A stretch of 37,829 nt of DNA from assembly GCA_025355175.1 (NCBI GenBank), contig JANYAF010000142.1, forward strand, positions 1-37,829, written 5' to 3'. Of this stretch, positions 5,218-17,317 are shown piece by piece (within the stretch, counting starts at the first letter, position 1; every line of letters starts with the position of its first letter). A program made the position numbers and the translations under genes. Source of the stretch: Deltaproteobacteria bacterium. GTDB lineage: Bacteria > Desulfobacterota > Syntrophia > Syntrophales > Smithellaceae. Under the pieces are notes generated by a model. It saw only the letters and a program-made list of their open reading frames with translations, had not been told where the DNA came from and ran no database searches.

Positions 5218-8200
5218 GTGATCGCCAAAATAATCGAACTTTCCGCCCGGAATAAATTCGCAGTCTTTCTTGTAATGGCCGTGGCCATCCTCTGGGGTTA
5301 CTGGGCGCTCCAAAATACACCTCTCGATGCTCTTCCTGATTTGAGCGATACACAGGTGATCATTTATACAGAATGGACAGGACGCAGTCCTGATCTGGTG
5401 GAAGATCAGATCACCTATCCGATCACGTCCACACTGCTTGCAGCCCCTAAAGTACAGGCGGTGCGTGGATTTTCTTATTTGGGAAGCTCCTTCATTTACG
5501 TAATCTTTGAAGAGGGGACGAACATCTATTGGGCCAGAAGCCGTATTCTGGAATATCTTCAGGCCGTAAAGAACAAAATTCCTGCCGATGTCAATCCTGT
5601 TTTGGGTCCCGATGCCACAAGCCTGGGATGGGGCTTTTCTTACGCTGTCATTGATGAAACGGGAGGCCATGACCTTGCCGAACTGCGCAGCATTCAGGAC
5701 TATGTTATCAAACTTGGGTTGGAAAGCGTACCGGGCGTTTCCCAGGTGGCAAGCATCGGCGGCTTTGTCAAGCAGTACCAGATAACGATTGATCCCAACC
5801 GTCTGACTGCCTACAACATTCCCATTACAAAGGTCATGGAGGCTGTCCGCAAGAGCAACCGGGATGTGGAAGGGCGCGTCCTGGAGCTATCCGGCGTGGA
5901 ATACATGATCCGGGGGCGGGGATACATCAAGGGGCTGCAAGACTTAGAGGCTATCGCCGTGGGCGCGAACCCCGGTGGAACGCCAATCTATTTAAGGGAT
6001 GTGGCCCGTATCCAACTGGGGCCGGAAATCCGCAGAGGGCTTGCGGATCTGGATGGCCGGGGTGAAGTGGCCGGCGGGATTGTGGTTGTCCGTACCGGCG
6101 AAAATGTTTTGAATGTGATTGATCGGGTTAAAGAAAAGATCAATAAGAACATCGCGCCCAGTCTTCCCAAGGGGATGAAAATTGTCACCACCTATGACCG
6201 TTCAGATCTGATTCAAAAATCAATATCCACCCTTAAAGAAGAGATCATCAAGCTGGTCATCGCGGTGAGCGTGGTTTGTCTCATTTTCCTTTTTCATTTG
6301 CCCAGCGCTCTGGTGGTCATTCTGACCTTGCCCATTGCGATTATCATTTCTTTTATCTGCATGTATTACCTGGGCATCACCTCTAACATAATGAGCTTAA
6401 GCGGCATTGCCATTGCCATCGGCGCCATGGTGGATGCCTCCATCATCATGGTGGAAAACGCCCATAAAAAGCTTGAAGAATGGGAAGAAAAGGGCCGGCC
6501 GGGAAATCGCACCGATGTGATCATTGAGGCCGCCAAAGAGGTGGGGCCATCGCTTTTCTTTGCCCTGCTCGTTATCAGTGTTGGTTTTCTGGCTGTATTC
6601 ACCTTGCAGGGGCAGGCGGGAAGGCTCTTCAAGCCCTTGGCCTATACGAAGACCTTTGCCATGCTTTTTGCCTCTTTTCTGGCCATTACCCTGACTCCGG
6701 TGCTCATGACCGTTTTTCTCCGGGGGAAGATCCAGCCGGAAGATAAGAATCCCATCATCGTTTTCTTAGGCAAGATCTACAGACCCCGGGTTGCCTTTGC
6801 TCTGAAATATCCCAAGGCGGTTATTGCTGCGGCGTTAATCTTAATGGCATTGACCGTTTATCCGGTTATGAAACTGGGTACGGAATTCATGCCGCCCCTT
6901 TACGAAGGAACGCTATTTTATATGCCCGTCACAGTACCCGGGGCATCCGTGTCCGAAGTCGGAACGCTCCTCCAGATGCAGGATAGCATTCTGAAAAAAA
7001 TACCGGAGGTCGCCCAGGTCTTCGGCAAAGCCGGGCGGGCGGAAACGGCCACAGATCCGGCGCCGCTGGAAATGTTTGAAACAGTCATCAACATGAAAGA
7101 TGAATCACAATGGCGAAGGCAAAAGACATGGTATTCATCCTGGGCGCCGGAATGGCTGAAATCAATATTGCGGCATGTCAGTCCAGACAGTATTTCACCG
7201 GACCAAATAAAAGATGAGATGAACGACGCCCTGTCTATTCCCGGCGTTGCCAATTCCTTCACGATGCCCATCAAGGCCCGCATCGACATGCTGGCTACAG
7301 GCATCCGCACGCCCGTTGGAATCAAAATCCTGGGGCCGGATTTGGAAGAGATCGAAAAAATAGGTCTGGCTCTGGAGCATCACTTAAAAGACATCCCCGG
7401 AACAAGAAGCGTTTACGCGGAACGCGTGACGACGGGTTACTTCCTCGATGTCGCCATAAAAAGAGATGAGGCGGCAAGATACGGCCTCACTGTGGACGAT
7501 GTAGGCGAGGTGATCCAGACAGCCATTGGCGGCATGAACCTGACGGTGACCGTAGAGGGACGCGCGCGCTATCCCGTCAACATTCGCTATCCACGCAATT
7601 TGCGCAACGATGTGGAGCAACTCAAGCGGATCCTTGTGCCGGTCATGATGAATAATAACGCTGCGCCGTTGCCGGCTGTGTCGGGCGGTATGTCGAATGT
7701 GCCGCAGATTACGCAGATACCGCTGGGGACGGTGGCGGATTTCAAGATTGTGAAAGGTCCAACGGCAATCAAAAGCGAAGAAGGACTTCTCACCGCTTAT
7801 GTCTTCATTGACTTTTCCGGCCGTGACATGGGCAGCTTCGTGGAGGAGGCCAAGCAAAAAGCATCAACGCTGAAGATTCCCGAAGGCTATAGGCTTTCTT
7901 GGAGCGGGGAATATGAAAATCTGACAAAGACGCATGAACGGCTGAAGATGGTCATTCCTCTGACCCTTTTCATTATCTTCCTGATCCTTTACCTGAATAC
8001 GAGATCAACGGTCAAAACAATGATTGTGCTTCTGGCCGTTCCTTTTTCCCTTGTAGGGTCCTTCTGGTTTCTGTACCTGCTCAATTATAATATGAGCATT
8101 GCCGTCTGGGTGGGAATTATAGCGCTTGCCGGACTGGATGCGGAGACGGGGGTCATCATGCTCCTCTATCTGGATATTTCCCACGACCAGTGGAAGAAGG

Positions 8201-8460
8201 AAGGCAGGATGAACAACATTAACGACTTGAAGGACGCCATCATGCATGGCGCGGTAAAGAGGGTGAGACCGAAGTTGATGACCGTAGGGGTTATCCTCGC
8301 CGGTCTGATTCCCATTATGTTCAGCGATGGCGCCGGCTCTGATGTGATGAAGCGTATTGCCGCACCCATGATCGGTGGTGTGATAACATCGGAGATACTC
8401 GAACTTACCGTCTATCCGGCCATCTATCTGATTTGGAAGAGGCGGACGTTTCAAAAATAA
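5218..8460 (+). CDS. cusA: CusA-like Cu(I)/Ag(I) efflux RND transporter
   Basis: A full-length 1080-residue RND pump starting at GTG with AAAAGG upstream. The proton-relay aspartate of TM4 is present as D406 in AMVDASIIMVEN, matching CusA D405. The three methionines that form the E. coli CusA periplasmic metal site (M573, M623, M672) have clear counterparts at M569 (FYMPVT), M619 (LEMFET) and M691 (IDMLATG). This supports monovalent Cu/Ag as substrate rather than Zn/Co/Cd. About 20 extra residues (WYSSWAPEWLKSIL and following) sit between the second and third methionine. The gene ends the four-gene operon that begins at 2318. Confidence 0.93.
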   Translation: MIAKIIELSARNKFAVFLVMAVAILWGYWALQNTPLDALPDLSDTQVIIYTEWTGRSPDLVEDQITYPITSTLLAAPKVQAVRGFSYLGSSFIYVIFEEGTNIYWARSRILEYLQAVKNKIPADVNPVLGPDATSLGWGFSYAVIDETGGHDLAELRSIQDYVIKLGLESVPGVSQVASIGGFVKQYQITIDPNRLTAYNIPITKVMEAVRKSNRDVEGRVLELSGVEYMIRGRGYIKGLQDLEAIAVGANPGGTPIYLRDVARIQLGPEIRRGLADLDGRGEVAGGIVVVRTGENVLNVIDRVKEKINKNIAPSLPKGMKIVTTYDRSDLIQKSISTLKEEIIKLVIAVSVVCLIFLFHLPSALVVILTLPIAIIISFICMYYLGITSNIMSLSGIAIAIGAMVDASIIMVENAHKKLEEWEEKGRPGNRTDVIIEAAKEVGPSLFFALLVISVGFLAVFTLQGQAGRLFKPLAYTKTFAMLFASFLAITLTPVLMTVFLRGKIQPEDKNPIIVFLGKIYRPRVAFALKYPKAVIAAALILMALTVYPVMKLGTEFMPPLYEGTLFYMPVTVPGASVSEVGTLLQMQDSILKKIPEVAQVFGKAGRAETATDPAPLEMFETVINMKDESQWRRQKTWYSSWAPEWLKSILRHVSPDSISPDQIKDEMNDALSIPGVANSFTMPIKARIDMLATGIRTPVGIKILGPDLEEIEKIGLALEHHLKDIPGTRSVYAERVTTGYFLDVAIKRDEAARYGLTVDDVGEVIQTAIGGMNLTVTVEGRARYPVNIRYPRNLRNDVEQLKRILVPVMMNNNAAPLPAVSGGMSNVPQITQIPLGTVADFKIVKGPTAIKSEEGLLTAYVFIDFSGRDMGSFVEEAKQKASTLKIPEGYRLSWSGEYENLTKTHERLKMVIPLTLFIIFLILYLNTRSTVKTMIVLLAVPFSLVGSFWFLYLLNYNMSIAVWVGIIALAGLDAETGVIMLLYLDISHDQWKKEGRMNNINDLKDAIMHGAVKRVRPKLMTVGVILAGLIPIMFSDGAGSDVMKRIAAPMIGGVITSEILELTVYPAIYLIWKRRTFQK

Positions 8461-8622: not shown

Positions 8623-8651
8623 TTGACAAGCGGGAATCTCTCATTTATATA
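8623..8651 (+). promoter_or_regulatory. Promoter of the aromatic amino acid operon
   Basis: TTGACA at 8623-8628 is a perfect -35 box. TATATA at 8646-8651 lies 17 bp downstream and serves as the -10 box. Transcription should start near 8658, giving an untranslated leader of roughly 235 bases before aroF that contains the leader peptide and the attenuator hairpins. No operator dyad is evident around the boxes, so control is probably post-initiation. Confidence 0.8.
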
Positions 8652-8680
8652 GCACAACAATTAAAAGGACAGGTTTTTCG

Positions 8681-8776
8681 ATGAACAGACAGATCAACGC
8701 AAACAACAATATTTTCGGTTTCTGGTTTTATTACTATTATGCGTCGGTCTGCCTGTCGCTGAGGAGGACTTGGTAA
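8681..8776 (+). CDS. Leader peptide of the aro attenuator, 31 residues, rich in Phe/Trp/Tyr
   Basis: An ATG at 8681, preceded by AAAAGGA at 8663-8669, opens a 31-codon frame ending in TAA at 8774-8776. Residues 12-20 read FGFWFYYYY: three Phe, one Trp and four consecutive Tyr codons (8714-8740). Trp is also the last residue. Such a run of regulatory codons just downstream of a promoter and upstream of terminator hairpins is the hallmark of ribosome-mediated attenuation, as in the pheA, trp and his leaders of enterobacteria. Here all three aromatic amino acids would be sensed, which fits an operon for the shared chorismate pathway. The peptide probably has no function of its own. Confidence 0.87.
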   Translation: MNRQINANNNIFGFWFYYYYASVCLSLRRTW

Positions 8777-8794
8777 AGTAACATTCACCAAAAC

Positions 8795-8841
8795 AGCCAT
8801 GGGTAGATCGAAAGCAAGCTGCCCATGGCTTTTCCGTTTTT
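8795..8841 (+). terminator. Attenuator terminator 1
   Basis: A 12-bp stem AGCCATGGGTAG (8795-8806) and CTGCCCATGGCT (8819-8830), with one G-U pair and a 12-base loop, is followed by TTTTCCGTTTTT. It lies 18 bases after the leader-peptide stop codon. It is mutually exclusive with the long-range A-B duplex described for the attenuator. Confidence 0.75.
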
Positions 8842-8880
8842 AAAGGCCGTGGCGGCAAAAGCCATGGCCTTTTCTTATTT
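8842..8880 (+). terminator. Attenuator terminator 2
   Basis: A 12-bp stem AAAGGCCGTGGC (8842-8853) and GCCATGGCCTTT (8861-8872), with one G-U pair and loop GGCAAAA, ends in TTTTCTTATTT directly before the aroF ribosome site (AAGGGG, near 8881). Its 3' arm can instead pair with the 3' arm of terminator 1, so both hairpins may respond to the same signal. It might also help occlude the aroF start. Confidence 0.7.
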
Positions 8881-8894
8881 AAGGGGAATTTATT

Positions 8895-9905
8895 ATGATT
8901 ATTGTTATGAAAAGACACGCAACGGAGAAACAGATTGAAGATGTCGTCCAATGGATCGAGTCGGTGGGCTACAAGGCTCATCCGTCCAGTGGTGTGGAGC
9001 GTACCATCATCGGAGCGGTTGGCGACAACCGCGATAAAGCCGTGCTGAAATATGCGGAATCGCTGCCGGGTGTGGAGAAAACCATGCCGATTCTGAAGCC
9101 CTACAAACTGGCCAGCCGCGAATCTCACGAAGGTGATACCGTGATTAACGTCGGTTCCATCCAGATCGGCGGTCCGGAGTTTGTGGTGATAGCCGGCCCC
9201 TGCGCCATTGAGAGCGAGGAGCAATTACTGGAGAGCGCCTACATCGTTAAAAAAGGCGGCGGACAAATTTTAAGGGGCGGCGCCTTCAAACCGCGCACGT
9301 CGCCTTACAGCTTCCAGGGTATGGAAGAGGAAGGCCTGAAAGTTCTGGATTCCGTGAGCAAGAAAACCAATTTACCGACGGTGACCGAAGTGGTCGATCC
9401 GGCGGATGTGGACTTGGTGGAATCTTATGCCGACATGCTGCAAATCGGCGCGCGCAATGTGCAGAATTTCGCCCTGCTGAAAAAAGTTGGTCATGCGCGC
9501 AAGCCGGTGCTGCTCAAACGCGGGATGATGACGACGATTGAAGAGTTGCTCATGTCGGCGGAATACATTCTTTCGTCCGGCAATCCCAACGTCATTCTTT
9601 GTGAGCGCGGCATCCGCACTTTTGAAACCGCCACCCGCAATACGCTGGATATCAGCGCCGTGCCTGTGCTCAAAAGCCTGACACATCTGCCGGTGGTCGT
9701 CGATCCCAGTCACGCGGCCGGTAACTGGAAGTATGTTATTCCGCTTTCGCGCGCGGCTGTTGCCGTGGGAGCGGACGGTATTATTGTGGAGGTGCATCCC
9801 GAACCGGAAAAGGCGGTTTCCGACGGCGCACAGTCTCTGAAACCGGAAAAATTCTATCAGCTGATGGATGATGTGCGGGCGCTCTCCAAAGCGATACGCA
9901 AATAA
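8895..9905 (+). CDS. aroF: 3-deoxy-7-phosphoheptulonate (DAHP) synthase, type I-beta with N-terminal regulatory domain
   Basis: First enzyme of the shikimate pathway: phosphoenolpyruvate plus erythrose 4-phosphate to DAHP, cytosolic and metal dependent. The 336 residues align end to end with the Thermotoga maritima enzyme as I remember it. Residues 1-65 are the ferredoxin-like regulatory domain that binds Tyr/Phe in that enzyme ([18 protein letters not shown]). The barrel follows, with [20 protein letters not shown] and CERGIRTFE. The metal ligands C103, H273, E299 and D310 are one position shifted from Thermotoga C102, H272, E298 and D309. The gene is first in the operon, 14 bases after terminator 2, with AAGGGG as ribosome site. 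Expression is therefore controlled by attenuation and activity probably by allostery. Confidence 0.97.
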
Positions 9906-9920
9906 AACGATGGAGCGGAT

Positions 9921-11015
9921 ATGCGATCATTAAAAGTCAATCTCGATAAGAAAACGTTGTCATCTTATGAAATCAGTATCGGCAAGGGCATTCTGGACCG
10001 GATGATCCTGCTGATTGCGAAGAATAACAAGGCGGCGCGCTATGTCATCATCACCGACAGCCACGTCAACAGGCTCTATGGGCAGGCATTCCTCACGGCG
10101 TTTGCAGAGGCGGGTTTGAATGCATCCATTCTTGAAATTCCCGCAGGCGAGTCTTCCAAAAATATTTCGACGGTCATGGATATAGCCGGGAAACTCTTAG
10201 CTGCTGGCGCCGATCGGGGAACGGTGCTTATTGCGCTGGGCGGCGGGGTGGTGGGTGATCTGACGGGCTTTATCGCATCGATTTATATGCGCTCGGTTCC
10301 CTATATTCAGGTACCGACCACGCTTGTCGGTCAGGTGGACAGCAGTATTGGCGGGAAAACCGCCGTGGATCTGCCTCAGGGAAAGAATTTACTGGGGACG
10401 TTTTACCAGCCGCGCGCGGTATTCACGGATTTGAATTTTCTGGATACACTGCCTGAAAATGAATTTAATAACGGTCTGGCCGAGATCATCAAATATGGCA
10501 TCATCGAAGATGAAAAAATGTTCAAGTTCCTTGAAGAGAATATGGATGCCGTTAAAAACAGAGATTCTGGTCACTTGCTGAAAATCATCGAAACCTGTTG
10601 CCGCATTAAAAAATCGATTGTGGAGATCGATGAGCGTGAGCAGGGCCTGCGCAGGATTTTGAATTTCGGTCATACGCTGGGGCACGCTCTGGAAGCCGTT
10701 TCGGACTACACGTTGTCGCATGGAGAAGGCGTGGCGTTGGGCATGATTGCCGCAGCGCGGCTGTCGGTGAAAATGCATTATCTTTCGGAAGATGAATCGG
10801 CCCGTTTGGAAAAAGTCATCGCTGGGGCGGGTCTGCCGGTAAAGATTCCGGCGTCCTTTATTTCCGACGCGGTGATCACCCGTTTAAAAATGGACAAGAA
10901 AAAAAAGGACGACGTGATTCATTTTGTCCTGATCAAAAAAATAGGCATGCCTTTTGTCAACAGCAGTGTCAGTGAAAAACTGATCGGCGATGTTCTGGAG
11001 GAAATGAAAGCATGA
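9921..11015 (+). CDS. aroB: 3-dehydroquinate synthase
   Basis: Second shikimate step, converting DAHP to 3-dehydroquinate with NAD and a divalent metal. The 364 residues have the usual length and motifs: IPAGESSKN, the glycine-rich GGGVVGDLTGFIAS, the PTTLVGQVDSSIGGKT loop, the NGLAEIIKYG metal-site region and NFGHTLGHALEA with zinc-binding histidines, then HGEGVALGM. It starts 15 bases after aroF. Its end overlaps the pheA start by 4 bases (ATGA), which indicates translational coupling. Confidence 0.97.
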   Translation: MRSLKVNLDKKTLSSYEISIGKGILDRMILLIAKNNKAARYVIITDSHVNRLYGQAFLTAFAEAGLNASILEIPAGESSKNISTVMDIAGKLLAAGADRGTVLIALGGGVVGDLTGFIASIYMRSVPYIQVPTTLVGQVDSSIGGKTAVDLPQGKNLLGTFYQPRAVFTDLNFLDTLPENEFNNGLAEIIKYGIIEDEKMFKFLEENMDAVKNRDSGHLLKIIETCCRIKKSIVEIDEREQGLRRILNFGHTLGHALEAVSDYTLSHGEGVALGMIAAARLSVKMHYLSEDESARLEKVIAGAGLPVKIPASFISDAVITRLKMDKKKKDDVIHFVLIKKIGMPFVNSSVSEKLIGDVLEEMKA

Positions 11016-12091
11016 AGCTCTCTCTGGATGTGTTAAGAGAAGACATGAGAAAAAAAGACCGGGAGATTATCCGGTTGCTTAATGAGCGTTCGCAGATCTC
11101 CGTTCAGATCGGCAAGGTGAAGGGGCAGACCGGCCTTGAGGTTTATAATCCCGCTCAGGAAGCAAGAGTGTTCAATTATTTGCAGGAACTCAATGACGGG
11201 CCATTGTCGGGCCGCCAGGTAACGGCGATTTTCCGGGAAATCATTTCCGCGTCGCGCGATCTGCAAAAGCCCATGAACATAGCGTATCTGGGACCGGAGG
11301 CCTCTTTCAGCCATCAGGCTGCGCGCCTGCATTTCGGCACGTCCAGCCGTTTCTGGCCGCAGCAAGGGATCGCGCGCGTTTTCGACGAAGTGGAAAAGGG
11401 CGCCGTGGAATGGGGCGTCGTGCCCGTGGAAAATTCATTGGAAGGGTCGGTGAATGTGACGCTGGATCGGCTGGTTTTAACGCCCCTGAAAATTCAGGCT
11501 GAGATGTGCCTGCGCATCAGCCAGTGCCTGATCTCGCAGGCTAAAAGCATGAAAGGCATCAAAAATGTTTATTCGCACCCGCAGGGGCTGGCGCAGTGCC
11601 AGGCTTGGCTCAGAGCCCATTTGCCCAATGCCGTGTTGGGTGAGATGGAAAGCACGGCGGCAGCCGCGCAGATGGTGCGGGGAAAAAAGACAGCTGCGGC
11701 TATCGGCAGCGCGCTGGCTGCAGACACTTATGGATTAAATAGGCTCGCGGAGAGCATTGAGGACAATCCCTCCAACACGACGCGCTTTCTGGTTGTCGGC
11801 CGGGGTGAAGGGACATCCACGGGCGAGGATAAAACATCGATTATTTTTGCCACGCCGAATTTCCCGGGATCGCTGCATCGGGCGCTGGCGTCCTTCGCAA
11901 AACGAAAGATCAATCTGGCCAAGATCGAGTCGCATCCGGTCAAGGAACGAATGTGGGAATACCTTTTCTTTGTGGATATGATCGGCCATATGAACGACAA
12001 AGCCGTTAAAAACTGCATCAAGGCATTAAAAGATAAGACGGTTTATTTGAAAATTCTAGGCTCGTATCCCCAGGCCAAGGACGGACTATGA
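11012..12091 (+). CDS. pheA: Bifunctional chorismate mutase / prephenate dehydratase (P-protein)
   Basis: Takes chorismate through prephenate to phenylpyruvate, the committed Phe branch. Three domains are visible in 359 residues: an AroQ-type all-helical chorismate mutase (1-88, DREIIRLLNERSQISVQIGKVKG), prephenate dehydratase (about 92-270, from AYLGPEASFSHQAA to NTTRFLVVGRG with the catalytic Thr-Arg-Phe), and an ACT domain (about 275-355). The ACT domain keeps near-canonical Phe-binding motifs (PGSLHRAL, and ESHP in place of the usual ESRP), so feedback inhibition by Phe is likely. It overlaps both neighbours by 4 bases. Its position in the middle of the trunk genes makes one transcript carry trunk and branch enzymes together. 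Confidence 0.96.
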   Translation: MKLSLDVLREDMRKKDREIIRLLNERSQISVQIGKVKGQTGLEVYNPAQEARVFNYLQELNDGPLSGRQVTAIFREIISASRDLQKPMNIAYLGPEASFSHQAARLHFGTSSRFWPQQGIARVFDEVEKGAVEWGVVPVENSLEGSVNVTLDRLVLTPLKIQAEMCLRISQCLISQAKSMKGIKNVYSHPQGLAQCQAWLRAHLPNAVLGEMESTAAAAQMVRGKKTAAAIGSALAADTYGLNRLAESIEDNPSNTTRFLVVGRGEGTSTGEDKTSIIFATPNFPGSLHRALASFAKRKINLAKIESHPVKERMWEYLFFVDMIGHMNDKAVKNCIKALKDKTVYLKILGSYPQAKDGL

Positions 12092-13656
12092 TTTGCATAC
12101 CCATCACGGATGTGACGCATCAGGAAGCGCTGAGATCGGTTGAAAGAAGCGCCATGGCGGCTGATTTAATCGAGTTGCGCATGGATTTGATTGCGGATGG
12201 CGATTTGGATCAATTGATTGCCGCGGCCCGTCGCGTATCCGGGCGCATCAAAATTATTGTCACCTGCCGCAGGAAAGAAGAAGCCCTTTTGCCGCCTCCG
12301 CTCGATCAAGCGGTCCGGAAAAAAGGGATGACCAAAACGTCCAAGATGCGTTTACTCAAACAGGCGATTGAGCTTGGCGTGGAATTCATTGATATTGAAC
12401 TGGCCGAAGGAGACAGGGCCATTAAGCAGCTTCAATCTTTTTGCCGCCAACAAAAAAGCTCCACACGGATCATCGTTTCCTGGCATGACATTTCCAAAAC
12501 ACCGTCGCTTGGAACATTAAAAGAAATATTTCAGGCCTGCGCGCAAACCGGCGCTGATATTGTAAAGATAGTTCCTTATGCCCGGACCGCGGCGGACAAC
12601 TTGAAAGTGCCTGGCCTGATCGCCTACGCCAAAGCGCAGGATCGTAAAATTATTGCGATGTGTATGGGCGATCTGGGGCAAATCAGCCGGGCCATGGCGC
12701 TGGTTTGGGGAAGTTATCTGGGATTTGCCGTATTGCCGGGCGGCAAAAAATCAGCGCCCGGCCAGTTGACGCTCAACACGATGAGGGAATTCCAGCATCT
12801 GTTGCCAGGTCATCAACGCTCAATCCAATCAGGGCTTTTACCACCGGACACATTGAACTTTGTTCTCTTGGGGAATCCTGTCCGGCAGAGTCTCTCTCCG
12901 CTCATGCATAACAAGGCTCTGGAGGCGATGCAGATTGACGGACATTACAGCGCATTTTGCGTGAGTGATTTAGCCCAAGCGATGACCGGAATCCGGGGCA
13001 TGAATATTCGCGGCGCGTCCGTCACGATTCCGTTTAAAACGGCGGTGATGGACTATCTCGACGAGATTGACGCGGATGCCGTTGCTCTGGGCGCCGTCAA
13101 TACGATCGTGAGTGAGAGGGGACGGCTTGCCGGCTACAACACGGATTGGCTGGGATTGATGCAGGCGTTGGAAGATAAAATACCCGTCGCGGGGGAAACT
13201 TTTGTCATCATAGGCGCAGGCGGCGCGGCGCGTGCGGCGGCTTACGGCATCAAAAAAGAAGGCGGCCGGCCCATTATTGTCAACCGGACCCGGGACAAGG
13301 GGTGGGCGCTTGCGGCATGGCTTGATTGTCCGTTTTATCCGCTTTCGGCCATCGGCAAAATTCAAGCCCATGGTCTGATCAATGCCACGTCCGTCGGCAT
13401 GTATCCGCGGATTCATCAATCACCGGTTACCGCGGCGACACTGGCCAATTATCAGGTTGTGGTGGATGTGATTTACAATCCTTTGAAGACCAGGCTGCTT
13501 CGGGATGCTGAGGCGCAAGGACTCAAGATTCTTTCCGGATTGGAGATGTTTGTGCGCCAGGGCGCCGGGCAATTAAAATTATGGACGGGAAAGGACGCGC
13601 CTTTGGCGCTGATGAGAAAGACCGTTCGGGAAGGGTTGGAAACGCTTGAACCCTGA
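12088..13656 (+). CDS. aroDE: Fused 3-dehydroquinate dehydratase (type I) and shikimate dehydrogenase
   Basis: One 522-residue chain carries two consecutive steps: 3-dehydroquinate to 3-dehydroshikimate to shikimate. Residues 1-225 are type I AroD, with the Schiff-base lysine K160 (IVKIVPY) and the catalytic histidine H133 (SWHDISKTP). Residues 250-522 are AroE: the shikimate site SLSPLMHN (near 268), the catalytic lysine K317 in PFK, NTD at 351-353, the NADP fold GAGGAARA from 376, and NRT. This arrangement is the rule in plants and is also known in Chlamydia; most bacteria have separate genes. The fusion would couple the enzymes and prevent loss of dehydroshikimate. The frame is continuous through the linker at about 226-250. 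Confidence 0.95.
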   Translation: MICIPITDVTHQEALRSVERSAMAADLIELRMDLIADGDLDQLIAAARRVSGRIKIIVTCRRKEEALLPPPLDQAVRKKGMTKTSKMRLLKQAIELGVEFIDIELAEGDRAIKQLQSFCRQQKSSTRIIVSWHDISKTPSLGTLKEIFQACAQTGADIVKIVPYARTAADNLKVPGLIAYAKAQDRKIIAMCMGDLGQISRAMALVWGSYLGFAVLPGGKKSAPGQLTLNTMREFQHLLPGHQRSIQSGLLPPDTLNFVLLGNPVRQSLSPLMHNKALEAMQIDGHYSAFCVSDLAQAMTGIRGMNIRGASVTIPFKTAVMDYLDEIDADAVALGAVNTIVSERGRLAGYNTDWLGLMQALEDKIPVAGETFVIIGAGGAARAAAYGIKKEGGRPIIVNRTRDKGWALAAWLDCPFYPLSAIGKIQAHGLINATSVGMYPRIHQSPVTAATLANYQVVVDVIYNPLKTRLLRDAEAQGLKILSGLEMFVRQGAGQLKLWTGKDAPLALMRKTVREGLETLEP

Positions 13657-14902
13657 AATAGACATGCAAGACAATGTTGCAGCCGTTTACGTTCCCGGTT
13701 CGAAAAGTTTAACGCAAAGGGCGTTAATTGCCGCCGCGCTGGCGCAGGGACCGTCGTTGATCCGGCATGCGCTCGTGGCCGAAGACACCGGGCATTTGAT
13801 GGCCGGGTTGCAAGAACTGGGCGCCCGCATTGAGCCGGTTGCCGAAGGTTTTGCCGTCGTCGGCACCGGCGGAGTCATTACCAATAAATGCCATAAAATA
13901 TTTCTGGGAAATAACGGCACGGCGCTGCGGTTTCTCACGGCGCTGGTCTGTCTGGGACGAGGACGTTATGTGTTAACCGGCGAGGAACGCCTGTGCGAGA
14001 GGCCGGTCGGGCCCTTGGTTTCCACGCTTCAGGAGATGGGGGTTGCGATATCCTGCCGCAATAACTGTCCGCCGGTGGAGGTGACGGCCAACGGCCTCAA
14101 AGGCGGCCGGATCACTCTGACCGATATTGAAAGCTCCCAGTATGTATCCGCGCTGCTTTTATGCGGACCTTATACCGCCAAGGGCATTGAGTTGACTCTG
14201 GAAGGAAATATCGTTTCCACGCCGTATATTGATTTGACGATCGGCGTGATGAGTGATTTCGGCGCGAATATCATTCGCACAGGTAACCGGCACTATCTTG
14301 TTGGGACACAGCATATTTATTCCGGACGCGATTATTATGTGGAAGGGGACGCCTCCAGTGCTTCTTATTTTTTTCTGGCCGCCGCGCTCACGAAAAAACG
14401 AATCCGTGTTCATGGCGTTAAAAGAGAAAGCGTACAGGGAGATATCCGTCTGCTCACTATTCTGGAAAAACTCGGCTGCCGGATCACAGGCGGTGAGACC
14501 TGGGTGGAAGTATCCCGAAGGCAGGATCTTGCTTCGGGCGACATGATATTTGATATGGGTGATATGCCGGATATGGTCCCGACTCTCGGCGTTCTTGCCG
14601 CTTTCCGCAAAGGGCGGACAATGATCGTAAACGTTGCGCATTTAAGAATCAAGGAAAGCAATCGTCTGGCGGCGATGGCGACCGAGCTCAACCGGATCGG
14701 CATTCACGCATCCGAACTGCCGGACGGCCTGGTTATCGAGGGAGGAATCACGCGCCCTGCCGCCATCGAAACCTATAACGACCACCGGATTGCGATGAGT
14801 TTTGCCGTTGCGGGGCTGATGACGCCAGGACTTTCGATTGCTGATAAAAAGTGTGTGGATAAATCTTTCCCCGGTTTCTGGCAGGAGCTTAAAAAAATAT
14901 GA
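13646..14902 (+). CDS. aroA: 3-phosphoshikimate 1-carboxyvinyltransferase (EPSP synthase)
   Basis: Joins shikimate 3-phosphate and PEP to EPSP, the sixth shikimate step. The first possible start is TTG at 13646, overlapping aroDE by 11 bases; ATG at 13664 is an alternative. VPGSKSLTQRALIAAA holds the active-site lysine near residue 20, DMPDMVPTLGVLAAF the catalytic aspartate, and YNDHRIAMSFAVAG the C-terminal signature. At 88-96 the PEP/glyphosate loop reads GNNGTALRF, where the E. coli enzyme has GNAGTAMRP; a hydrophobic residue instead of that proline is known from class II and archaeal enzymes. Total length of 418 is normal. Confidence 0.95.
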   Translation: MNPEIDMQDNVAAVYVPGSKSLTQRALIAAALAQGPSLIRHALVAEDTGHLMAGLQELGARIEPVAEGFAVVGTGGVITNKCHKIFLGNNGTALRFLTALVCLGRGRYVLTGEERLCERPVGPLVSTLQEMGVAISCRNNCPPVEVTANGLKGGRITLTDIESSQYVSALLLCGPYTAKGIELTLEGNIVSTPYIDLTIGVMSDFGANIIRTGNRHYLVGTQHIYSGRDYYVEGDASSASYFFLAAALTKKRIRVHGVKRESVQGDIRLLTILEKLGCRITGGETWVEVSRRQDLASGDMIFDMGDMPDMVPTLGVLAAFRKGRTMIVNVAHLRIKESNRLAAMATELNRIGIHASELPDGLVIEGGITRPAAIETYNDHRIAMSFAVAGLMTPGLSIADKKCVDKSFPGFWQELKKI

Positions 14903-15468
14903 AAGTCATCATCATCGGCTATAGGGCAACCGGAAAGTCAACCGTAGGCTTGCTTCTGTCCAAAAAGCTTCAAATTCCGTTTGTGGATACCGATCAGTTG
15001 ATCGAGGATACGGCGGGCATGCCGATTAAAACATTGGTGGCCCGTCATGGTTGGGAGACATTCCGGGAAAAAGAAACAGAGGTGATTGCTTCGCTTTGCG
15101 ACGGAAATCTTTGTGTCGTGGCCACCGGTGGCGGCGCGATCCTATCCGGGGTAAACAGGGAGTTGTTGAAAAATATGGGAACCCTGATATATTTGAAAAC
15201 GCCTTTGCCTGATATTGTTGAGCGGCTGAAACAAGACGCGCAAGCCGAACAAGTCCGACCGCGATTTACATCCGGGAATCTTATGGAGGAGACGATTGCC
15301 GCATTGGAGGAGCGCATTCCCATCTATGAGTCGACTGCTGATTTTATGGTGGACACGAATGGCAAAAGTATTGCACGGGTCAGCGACGACATTTATCAGC
15401 ATTTGTTCGAAGCGGGTATTGTATCCGATATCAACGAAACGAAAAATATATTAAAAAATAAACTTTAG
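14899..15468 (+). CDS. aroK: Shikimate kinase
   Basis: Phosphorylates shikimate with ATP to shikimate 3-phosphate. The 189-residue P-loop kinase has a Walker A at residues 7-15 (GYRATGKST), the DTD shikimate-binding pair after it, FREKETEVI, and VATGGGAIL, all standard for AroK. The chain is slightly longer than the usual 170-175 residues, with a C-terminal tail after residue 175. Its ATG overlaps the aroA stop by 4 bases. Confidence 0.95.
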   Translation: MKVIIIGYRATGKSTVGLLLSKKLQIPFVDTDQLIEDTAGMPIKTLVARHGWETFREKETEVIASLCDGNLCVVATGGGAILSGVNRELLKNMGTLIYLKTPLPDIVERLKQDAQAEQVRPRFTSGNLMEETIAALEERIPIYESTADFMVDTNGKSIARVSDDIYQHLFEAGIVSDINETKNILKNKL

Positions 15469-15479
15469 CGGGAGAGTGT

Positions 15480-16547
15480 ATGGCGGGAAATACTATTGGC
15501 TGCGTGTTTTGCGTGACAACCTGGGGGGAGTCGCACGGCAACGCGACAGGCGCGGTGATCGACGGCTGCCCGGCCGGGATGGATCTGGCTGAGGCCGATA
15601 TTCAGCAGGCGTTGGACCGCCGCAAACCCTCAAAGGGGGCGGCCTCAACATCGCGCGTCGAAATAGACAGGGTGGAAATCCTGTCCGGTGTTTTTGAGGG
15701 AAAAACAACCGGCACGCCGATTGCGCTCCTTATCCGCAACATTGACGCCCGGCCGTCGAATTACGATGACCTGAAAGATGTTTTCCGCCCCGGGCACGGT
15801 GATTATACTTACTATAAAAAATATGGTGTCCGCGACTGGCGAGGGGGTGGACGTGCTTCTGGCCGGGAGACCGTCGCCCGCGTTGCCGCTGGAGCCGTCG
15901 CTCAAAAAGTGATTGCTGCCGCCGGTATGGAGGTGATCGCTTACACCAAAAGTATCGGCGGAATTGAGATCAATACCGCGAGCTTGATACCCAGTCAGGA
16001 TTTGAAAGCAAAAGTACGTCAGAGCACGCTGTATTGCCCTGATGATCAGGCTGCGGCGGCCATGGAAGAGCGGCTGGCCGCCGTCCGCAAGGAAGGCGAT
16101 ACGCTGGGCGGTGTGGTGGAGATCATCGTACGGGGGTGCCCTGCGGGTTTGGGCGAGCCGGTGTTCGATAAGATGGATGCGGATTTAGCAAAAGCCCTGA
16201 TGAGCATTGGAACGGTCAAGGCCGTGGAAACAGGCGACGGTTGCGTGGTGGCCGGGCAAAAAGGCTCCCAGGTCAACGACCCGATGGATGCCACAGATTT
16301 TAAAAAGAATTCCGCCGGAGGCATCCTGGCCGGCATTACCACCGGCCAGGATATCATTGTCCGGGTTTATTGCAAACCGATTCCGTCGATTTCACAAAAG
16401 CAGCAGACCACGGACATTCAGGGCAATCAGCGTTTCATCGAAATTCAGGGTCGTCATGATATCTGTGTCATTCCACGGATTGTGCCGGTGTGTGAAGCGA
16501 TGGTTTGTCTTGTGCTGGCCGACCACTGGCTTAGGCTAGGCAGATGA
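15480..16547 (+). CDS. aroC: Chorismate synthase
   Basis: Last trunk step, EPSP to chorismate, using reduced FMN. The 355 residues begin with MAGNTIGCVFCVTTWGESHG, the conserved N-terminal signature, followed by RRKPSKG-type and GRASGRETVARVAAGAVA motifs that line the FMN and EPSP site. GDGCVVAGQKGSQVND and GGILAGITTGQDI are in place near the C-terminus. It starts 11 bases after aroK with GGGAGAG as ribosome site, and its stop overlaps the tyrA ATG by 4 bases. Confidence 0.96.
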   Translation: MAGNTIGCVFCVTTWGESHGNATGAVIDGCPAGMDLAEADIQQALDRRKPSKGAASTSRVEIDRVEILSGVFEGKTTGTPIALLIRNIDARPSNYDDLKDVFRPGHGDYTYYKKYGVRDWRGGGRASGRETVARVAAGAVAQKVIAAAGMEVIAYTKSIGGIEINTASLIPSQDLKAKVRQSTLYCPDDQAAAAMEERLAAVRKEGDTLGGVVEIIVRGCPAGLGEPVFDKMDADLAKALMSIGTVKAVETGDGCVVAGQKGSQVNDPMDATDFKKNSAGGILAGITTGQDIIVRVYCKPIPSISQKQQTTDIQGNQRFIEIQGRHDICVIPRIVPVCEAMVCLVLADHWLRLGR

Positions 16548-17317
16548 AAAATATTACCGTAGGCATTATCGGCGGCACAAACGGCATGGGGCGCTGGCTG
16601 GCCGAACTGTTGGTTTTCGAAGGCTGTATCGTTCATGTCACCGGTAGAAAAACGGAGATGACCGCTGCGGACGTTGCTCGAATTGGTGATGTGGTTGTCG
16701 TATCCGTTCCGATTGCGGCAACAGCGGGTGTTATCGCCCAGGTCGGCCCGCTTGTGAAAAAAGGACAGGTGTTGATGGATTTGACATCATTGAAGAAAGA
16801 GCCGGTGGCGTTGATGCTGGCTCACTCCGAAGCCGAGGTGGTTGGCTGCCATCCGCTGTTCGGGCCGTCCGTCACAGAATCGGCGGGTCACAATATTGTT
16901 TTATGCCGGGGACGGGGCGACGCCTGGTATGCGTGGATTAAAAACATTTTTGAAAAAACCGGCTACCATGTTTTGGAAAGAACCCCTGCCGAGCACGACC
17001 GGATAATGACCATTGTGCAGGCCCTCAACCACCTCAATACCATCGCACTGGGCATGGCGATTGCCGAAACCGGAATCCCGCTTATGGAAGTGAATCAATT
17101 TTCCACGCCCATCTTTAAAACCAAAATGGACATTGTTAAAAAAGTATTCACCGAAAGCCCGGAGCTCTACGCCGACATTATCGCCGGAAATCGCGATAGG
17201 GACGATGTGCTTCGGACTTACGAACGGGTTGTCCTGAATATTCGCGACCTGGTTAAGGCGGGCGACGGCGCGAAGTTAAAGAGCGCCATGGAAGCCGCCG
17301 CAAAAAAATTATTCTGA
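16544..17317 (+). CDS. tyrA: Prephenate dehydrogenase
   Basis: Oxidises prephenate to 4-hydroxyphenylpyruvate, the Tyr branch. The 257-residue chain starts with a Rossmann fold (VGIIGGTNGMGRWLAELL, Gly-rich loop at 10-16), then VVVSVPIAAT, DLTSLKKEP and GCHPLFGPSV, the prephenate-binding histidine region of the TyrA family. It resembles the dehydrogenase half of E. coli TyrA rather than longer stand-alone enzymes. No chorismate mutase or ACT domain is attached, so prephenate must come from the PheA mutase. It is the last gene before the terminator at 17377. Confidence 0.93.
   Translation: MKNITVGIIGGTNGMGRWLAELLVFEGCIVHVTGRKTEMTAADVARIGDVVVVSVPIAATAGVIAQVGPLVKKGQVLMDLTSLKKEPVALMLAHSEAEVVGCHPLFGPSVTESAGHNIVLCRGRGDAWYAWIKNIFEKTGYHVLERTPAEHDRIMTIVQALNHLNTIALGMAIAETGIPLMEVNQFSTPIFKTKMDIVKKVFTESPELYADIIAGNRDRDDVLRTYERVVLNIRDLVKAGDGAKLKSAMEAAAKKLF

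Follow-up and report, generated by a model that had tools for sequence, protein, structure and literature searches.

How might one short leader peptide sense the supply of Phe, Trp and Tyr together, and could a single ribosome stall on it release two transcription terminators in a row? The region upstream of aroF in a Syntrophales genome, whose closest named relatives are Smithellaceae, raises this question, and we analysed it within a stretch of 37,829 nucleotides (the window) and across related genomes. We conclude that the aroF leader is very probably a ribosome-mediated transcription attenuator, and put at roughly 0.6 the probability of the full two-terminator relay, in which one stall at Phe, Trp or Tyr codons disarms both terminators. 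The evidence throughout is comparative and thermodynamic.

A conserved aromatic leader precedes the chorismate operon

The operon aroF-aroB-pheA-aroDE-aroA-aroK-aroC-tyrA encodes the entire chorismate trunk together with the Phe and Tyr branches, and its surroundings in the window are as follows:

5218-8460, plus strand: RND efflux gene, upstream of the leader
8623-8651, plus strand: promoter-like element read from the sequence, TTGACA (8623-8628), 17 nt, TATATA (8646-8651)
8665-8673, plus strand: Shine-Dalgarno-like sequence AAGGACAGG, 7 nt 5' of the leader ATG
8681-8776, plus strand: leader peptide ORF, 31 codons and a stop codon, MNRQINANNNIFGFWFYYYYASVCLSLRRTW, with homologous leaders in relatives
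8714-8740, plus strand: putative regulatory codons, FGFWFYYYY, residues 12-20 of the translation
8895-9905, plus strand: aroF, DAHP synthase (PRK08673 / DAHP_synth_Bsub), first gene of the operon
9921-17317, plus strand: aroB, pheA (chorismate mutase-prephenate dehydratase), aroDE, aroA, aroK, aroC and tyrA

The promoter-like element is absent from a strict consensus scan because its -10 hexamer ends in A; a TTGACA-like element lies at most 110 nt from where the leader begins in 78 of 96 relatives, compared with 19 of 96 shuffled sequences.

Translation of the ORF bears out the first-pass annotation, made from this DNA alone, which had described a 31-codon leader with FGFWFYYYY at residues 12-20. 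A comparable ORF, with eight of nine codons aromatic and all three residues present, occurs once in the real window and in none of 60 random windows (first-order Markov, same composition), and the fold of the leader region beats all 200 of 200 shuffles (z -4.65). Searching 155 Syntrophales genomes, we found AroF in 134 and examined 110 upstream regions, 101 of which, covering 21 of 21 families, carry a leader of the FGFWFYYYY type. This conservation shows that the leader is real and not a chance ORF; the nine aroF regions that lack it mostly fall at contig ends or an assembly gap, have a disrupted leader or belong to a paralogue. Codons for Phe, Trp and Tyr occur together in 87 of the 92 analysed leaders, and the remaining five contain Phe and Tyr only. 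These counts support the earlier proposal of a Phe/Trp/Tyr attenuator before the chorismate trunk, which also survived when we asked, in Syntrophales, whether homologous leaders keep the codon run and the pairing arms.

Within the leader ORF of the window, positions 8761-8769 (GAGGAGGAC) resemble a Shine-Dalgarno sequence and recur in much of Syntrophales.

Two terminators and the segments that compete for them

On either side of the aromatic codons, six RNA segments can be delimited, of which segments 3 and 4 form terminator 1 (T1) and segments 5 and 6 form terminator 2 (T2):

8668-8701, plus strand: segment 1, in two blocks around the leader start, the partner of segment 2 (16 pairs in the minimum free energy, MFE, fold)
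8741-8758, plus strand: segment 2 (core 8744-8756), within the leader ORF; its core GGUCUGCC is nearly invariant and pairs with segment 1 or 3
8795-8814, plus strand: segment 3, the T1 5' arm and a conserved loop half (GCCAUGGGUAGAUCG), delimited by comparison
8795-8830, plus strand: T1 (3:4), 12 bp, -20.4 kcal/mol, then TTTCCGTTTTT; 7 of 12 pairs changed on both sides
8818-8833, plus strand: segment 4, the 3' arm of T1 with the first part of the U tract, which co-evolves with segment 5
8842-8856, plus strand: segment 5, the T2 5' arm and a loop-side GGC, from comparison and folding
8842-8872, plus strand: T2 (5:6), 12 bp with a 7-nt loop, then TCTTATTT; segment 6 is 8861-8872; 6 of 10 pairs changed on both sides

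Across both hairpins, 14 of 23 pairs show changes on both sides, with 66 compensatory cells in the alignment against 19.4 in shuffles, none of which reached as high a count (0/500). RNAalifold predicts both hairpins from the same alignment, and exchanging arms between families gave p 0.003 for 3:4 and p 0.003 for 5:6. A recognisable T2 is present in 93 of 99 relatives and missing from six. Thus, the tandem terminators that had been proposed are supported by compensatory changes, with a corrected boundary, as the T2 3' arm had been placed at 8860-8867 and is in fact 8861-8872. At one locus of Syntrophales family f2 (L044), a T1-like hairpin lies before aroF and a leader ORF was not found, possibly marking a degenerate attenuator.

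The duplex between 8744-8756 and 8799-8811 is likewise confirmed as 13 consecutive pairs, four of them G-U, and as mutually exclusive with T1: the 2:3 antiterminator has a mean energy of -25.7 kcal/mol with segment 4 blocked, against a mean of -21.1 kcal/mol for T1, and 90.7% of its alignment cells are paired. Being nearly invariant, 2:3 yields little covariation (swap test p 0.06-0.08; antiterminator set only modestly above shuffles, 16/500), and its support lies in conservation and stability. We also considered whether segment 2 might pair locally with the downstream AGGAGGAC; this sequence is confined to part of Syntrophales.

Segment 1, which the first-pass annotation had overlooked, pairs with segment 2 in a way that is maintained between families while its position moves. 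In many families it is the start region itself (AUGGRCAGA), and in family f19 it can lie 5' of the start codon with the pairing still maintained. Segment 2 folds onto the leader-start region in the MFE structure of 81 of 92 relatives, and native 1:2 pairs are 1.8 kcal/mol better than between-family swaps (median p 0.003).

Segments 4 and 5 co-evolve

In the window, 8818-8833 and 8842-8856 can form a 15-bp hairpin (4:5), an alternative helix once 2:3 has formed. Across 19 Syntrophales families, native 4:5 partners beat swapped ones (p ~0.01), and the same holds for 50 loci from 25 other Desulfobacterota families, where the native helix surpasses the swapped ones by 2.6 kcal/mol (z -4.9, p 0.003). 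These tests take one random member per family, which reduces shared ancestry while some remains, and use arm boundaries defined by a script. The control pair 3:6 gave p 0.56 in Syntrophales and p 0.066 in the 25-family set, in which 3:5 gave p 0.48. A link between segments 2 and 5 was weak in the Syntrophales swap test (p 0.07) and was set aside.

Part of the 4:5 pairing is automatic because T1 and T2 share a GCC..GGC base. The core alone and the base side alone show no co-evolution in the Syntrophales family swap test; the signal there is thus carried only by the loop side, which lies outside the shared core. The comparison of aroF upstream regions of Syntrophales for compensatory changes, which had been suggested at the outset, supports T1, T2, 1:2 and the co-evolution of 4:5.

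A proposed relay from one stall to two terminators

Taken together, these segments suggest a model in which the sensed signal would be charged tRNA for Phe, Trp and Tyr, with six RNA segments passing it on to two intrinsic terminators in tandem. When Phe, Trp and Tyr are all plentiful, the ribosome would pass the aromatic codons and reach the stop codon, between segments 2 and 3, where it would separate the two and let 1:2 close behind it; T1 (3:4) and then T2 (5:6) would form and transcription would stop. If any of the three were short, the ribosome would stall between segments 1 and 2, segment 2 would capture segment 3, and the freed segment 4 would fold onto segment 5 once this is transcribed, so that 2:3 and 4:5 together would pre-empt both terminators and aroF with the rest of the chorismate operon would be transcribed. 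We infer the stalling, the direction of the response and its operation in vivo from this architecture.

The spacing of the leader is consistent with such a scheme. The first Trp, Tyr and Phe codons lie at median distances of 23, 29 and 32 nt upstream of segment 2, so a ribosome stalled at any of them should leave segment 2 free; one halted at the final Tyr codons would overlap it partially, and one at the first codon of each amino acid not at all. The stop codon falls 16 or 19 nt 3' of the 9-nt core of segment 2 in 82 of 92 relatives. The first-pass annotation had cautioned that a ribosome there sits between the antiterminator arms rather than on them, so that blocking would have to be steric. 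The position stands and the difficulty is answered by inference, as a ribosome at the stop codon would leave the co-evolving 1:2 helix (p ~0.003) free to close behind it.

Stage-wise folding of the window, in which the ribosome edge is assumed and polymerase footprint and tertiary effects are ignored, indicates how the order of synthesis might matter. Under a stalled ribosome, 2:3 (14 pairs, -26.0 kcal/mol) forms before segment 4 exists. At the end of T1 the MFE structure is T1 even with the ribosome stalled; once segment 5 exists, it is 2:3 with 4:5 (-51.5 kcal/mol); and at the end of T2, T1 with T2 wins at equilibrium (-55.1 kcal/mol). With the ribosome at the stop codon, or with none, T1 and then T2 form. 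Since T1, and later T1 with T2, are favoured at equilibrium in the window, control must be kinetic, as it is for other attenuators. The chain of 2:3 and 4:5 from the sensed segment to the last terminator thus combines a co-evolving 4:5 helix with an equilibrium at the T2 end that favours both terminators, and we regard the relay onto T2, including the kinetic success of 4:5 over T2, as plausible on these folding models.

Alternative readings

The alternative that weighs most is an ordinary single switch (1:2/2:3/3:4) followed by an unregulated, partly efficient back-up T2 that cuts basal readthrough, with the 4:5 complementarity a by-product of similar terminator stems. T2 is indeed only putatively regulated: at equilibrium it wins over 4:5 both in the window and in 53 of 87 relatives (4:5 is the more stable in the other 34), and the common stem base and the silent 4:5 core would fit this reading as well. 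What speaks against it is that the loop side, which no shared core explains, co-evolves (p 0.01), and that a T2 arising as a mere copy of T1 should give 3:6 a signal equal to that of 4:5, yet 3:6 falls short of it in both sets (p 0.56 and 0.066 against 0.01 and 0.003). Moreover, several families have a mispaired base in T1 that finds its partner in T2 (A with T in 11 of 15; p 0.03 in a family-level permutation). We therefore hold the back-up terminator to be a tentative possibility. A relay through segments 4 and 6, as the first-pass annotation had envisaged, is very improbable: the T1 3' arm does match 8860-8867 over 8 nt, but this is expected from the palindrome CCATGG carried by both stems, and the helix, with a mean of -10.0 kcal/mol compared with -17.3 kcal/mol for 4:5, is far weaker and shows no co-evolution in Syntrophales (median p ~0.5; 119/500 shuffles) or in the 25 other Desulfobacterota families (median p 0.11). 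The idea that one stall could disarm both terminators finds support, with 4:5 rather than 4:6 as the link.

Two further readings leave the codons or the operon out of the regulation. The strong conservation of V-C-P after the aromatic run might point to a TnaC-like nascent peptide, in which a conserved W...VCP stalls the ribosome on a free aromatic amino acid; however, these residues are encoded by the segment 2 core, whose RNA pairing with segments 1 and 3 accounts for their conservation, most members of the genus to which the window belongs have Leu in place of Pro, and the aromatic residues, though variable in number and order, are almost always of the same kinds, all of which makes peptide sensing quite improbable. 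Scarcely credible is the assignment of T1 and T2 to the RND efflux gene with an incidental leader ORF: the gene (5218-8460) does lie on the same strand, but the promoter-like element and the leader intervene, and both leader and terminators stay with aroF in 21 families. The two-terminator relay through 4:5 is the reading we carry forward.

Relation to known attenuators

The E. coli pheA and trp attenuators have one terminator, a leader stop codon near segment 2 and one sensed amino acid. The aroF leader shares their leader codon run and their 1:2, 2:3, 3:4 logic, and differs in its two terminators, in a stop codon 16-19 nt past the segment 2 core and in its three amino acids. The leader of E. 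coli ilvGMEDA responds to three (branched-chain) amino acids and has one terminator; it is alike in being a multivalent leader for one branched pathway, and unlike in that the aroF leader reads aromatic amino acids and precedes two terminators. Its example also makes the first-pass statement that known attenuators sense one or two amino acids too narrow. In the his attenuator, alternative pairings make up a chain, which the present segments recall: A:B, C:D and E:F are opposed to B:C and D:E. The his attenuator of E. coli and Salmonella also acts through the ribosome and has an additional hairpin that separates its pause hairpin from the terminator (PMC1183508). Only the last his hairpin is a terminator and one amino acid is sensed, whereas here a U tract follows both the middle and the last hairpin and the leader reads three amino acids. 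The study that describes the extra his hairpin also lists ilvGMEDA among attenuators and gives two low-leakage designs proposed from modelling, one of which places the stop codon well towards the 3' side of segment 2 (PMC1183508); the aroF leader sets its stop codon further in the same direction.

Searching the window against Rfam (Trp_leader, other leaders, T-box, riboswitches) gave no match at the gathering score and none meaningful up to E 10. The main comparative survey of attenuation, by Lopatovskaya and co-workers, is said in its follow-up paper to have outlined chains of RNA helices. The six-segment two-terminator layout was not described in the literature we searched, with an earlier mention in that survey (Lopatovskaya 2010, Mol Biol) being possible; the layout is probably new, and the type of control long known. 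For aroF leaders, the same search returned only Acholeplasma and Corynebacterium. In the parts of these reports available, the Acholeplasma leader uORFC-13-1 has one or more Phe codons and a single terminator stem (PMC8632094), and the C. glutamicum aroF leader contains Phe-Tyr-Phe, with only Phe and Tyr named (PMC4046766). Both resemble the present case as short aromatic leaders before a DAHP synthase gene for which attenuation was proposed; unlike here, tandem terminators, Trp codons or a segment relay are not described in those parts.

Distribution and related leaders

A covariance model of the two-terminator region matches 217 of 395 Desulfobacterota genomes, a figure that does not measure the frequency of the aroF element, as the model is biased towards tandem terminators and some of its matches precede other amino acid genes. 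Searching outside Syntrophales with the AroF protein only, we found an FWY-type leader at 18 of 26 further loci, 12 of the 18 with two terminators. The same leader type also occurs before AroG-type DAHP synthase and ADH synthase in other families, so that this control would precede three types of entry enzyme. We lean, by a little, towards a Desulfobacterota-wide class of relay attenuators with a five-helix chain before these three enzyme types. If the relay is true, one peptide would read a whole branched pathway, one stall would steer two terminators, and basal leakage would fall below that of a single terminator. The arrangement suggests how syntrophic and related bacteria control entry into aromatic synthesis, whatever the entry enzyme type, and the aroF leader provides an RNA signature with which such control could be annotated.

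Further leaders came to light in the same genome (G000). A separate leader, MKKIAVTLNLNSGWWWSLTGRISRR, precedes its trpE, and here too two terminators follow in tandem (contig C152, L222, ~598-780). On contig C169 (L223), the leader MKQYLFTQAVSFYFYFFSFIGFKVCLKVS with a single terminator precedes a gene resembling a branched-chain amino acid ABC transporter binding protein, whose uptake function is possibly controlled by aromatic amino acids. A leucine-rich leader, LLTLLLGLALLRLLLKAACPSF, and one terminator lie before leuA (contig C144, L228), and a valine-rich leader, RLLVVVVVLMGS, before an acetolactate synthase-like gene (contig C120, L224, minus strand). Attenuation may be a general mode of control for amino acid operons in this genome.

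Among other Desulfobacterota, two loci (L235, L252) combine a leader of the Trp type (GWWWCS, WRWWWP) with tandem terminators before an AroF-type DAHP synthase, which suggests DAHP synthase isoenzymes that each answer to a single amino acid. At four loci (L244, L249, L257 and L259), putative secreted transporter binding proteins are preceded by tandem terminators and a Tyr-rich leader (YYYYGYLRRSA and similar).
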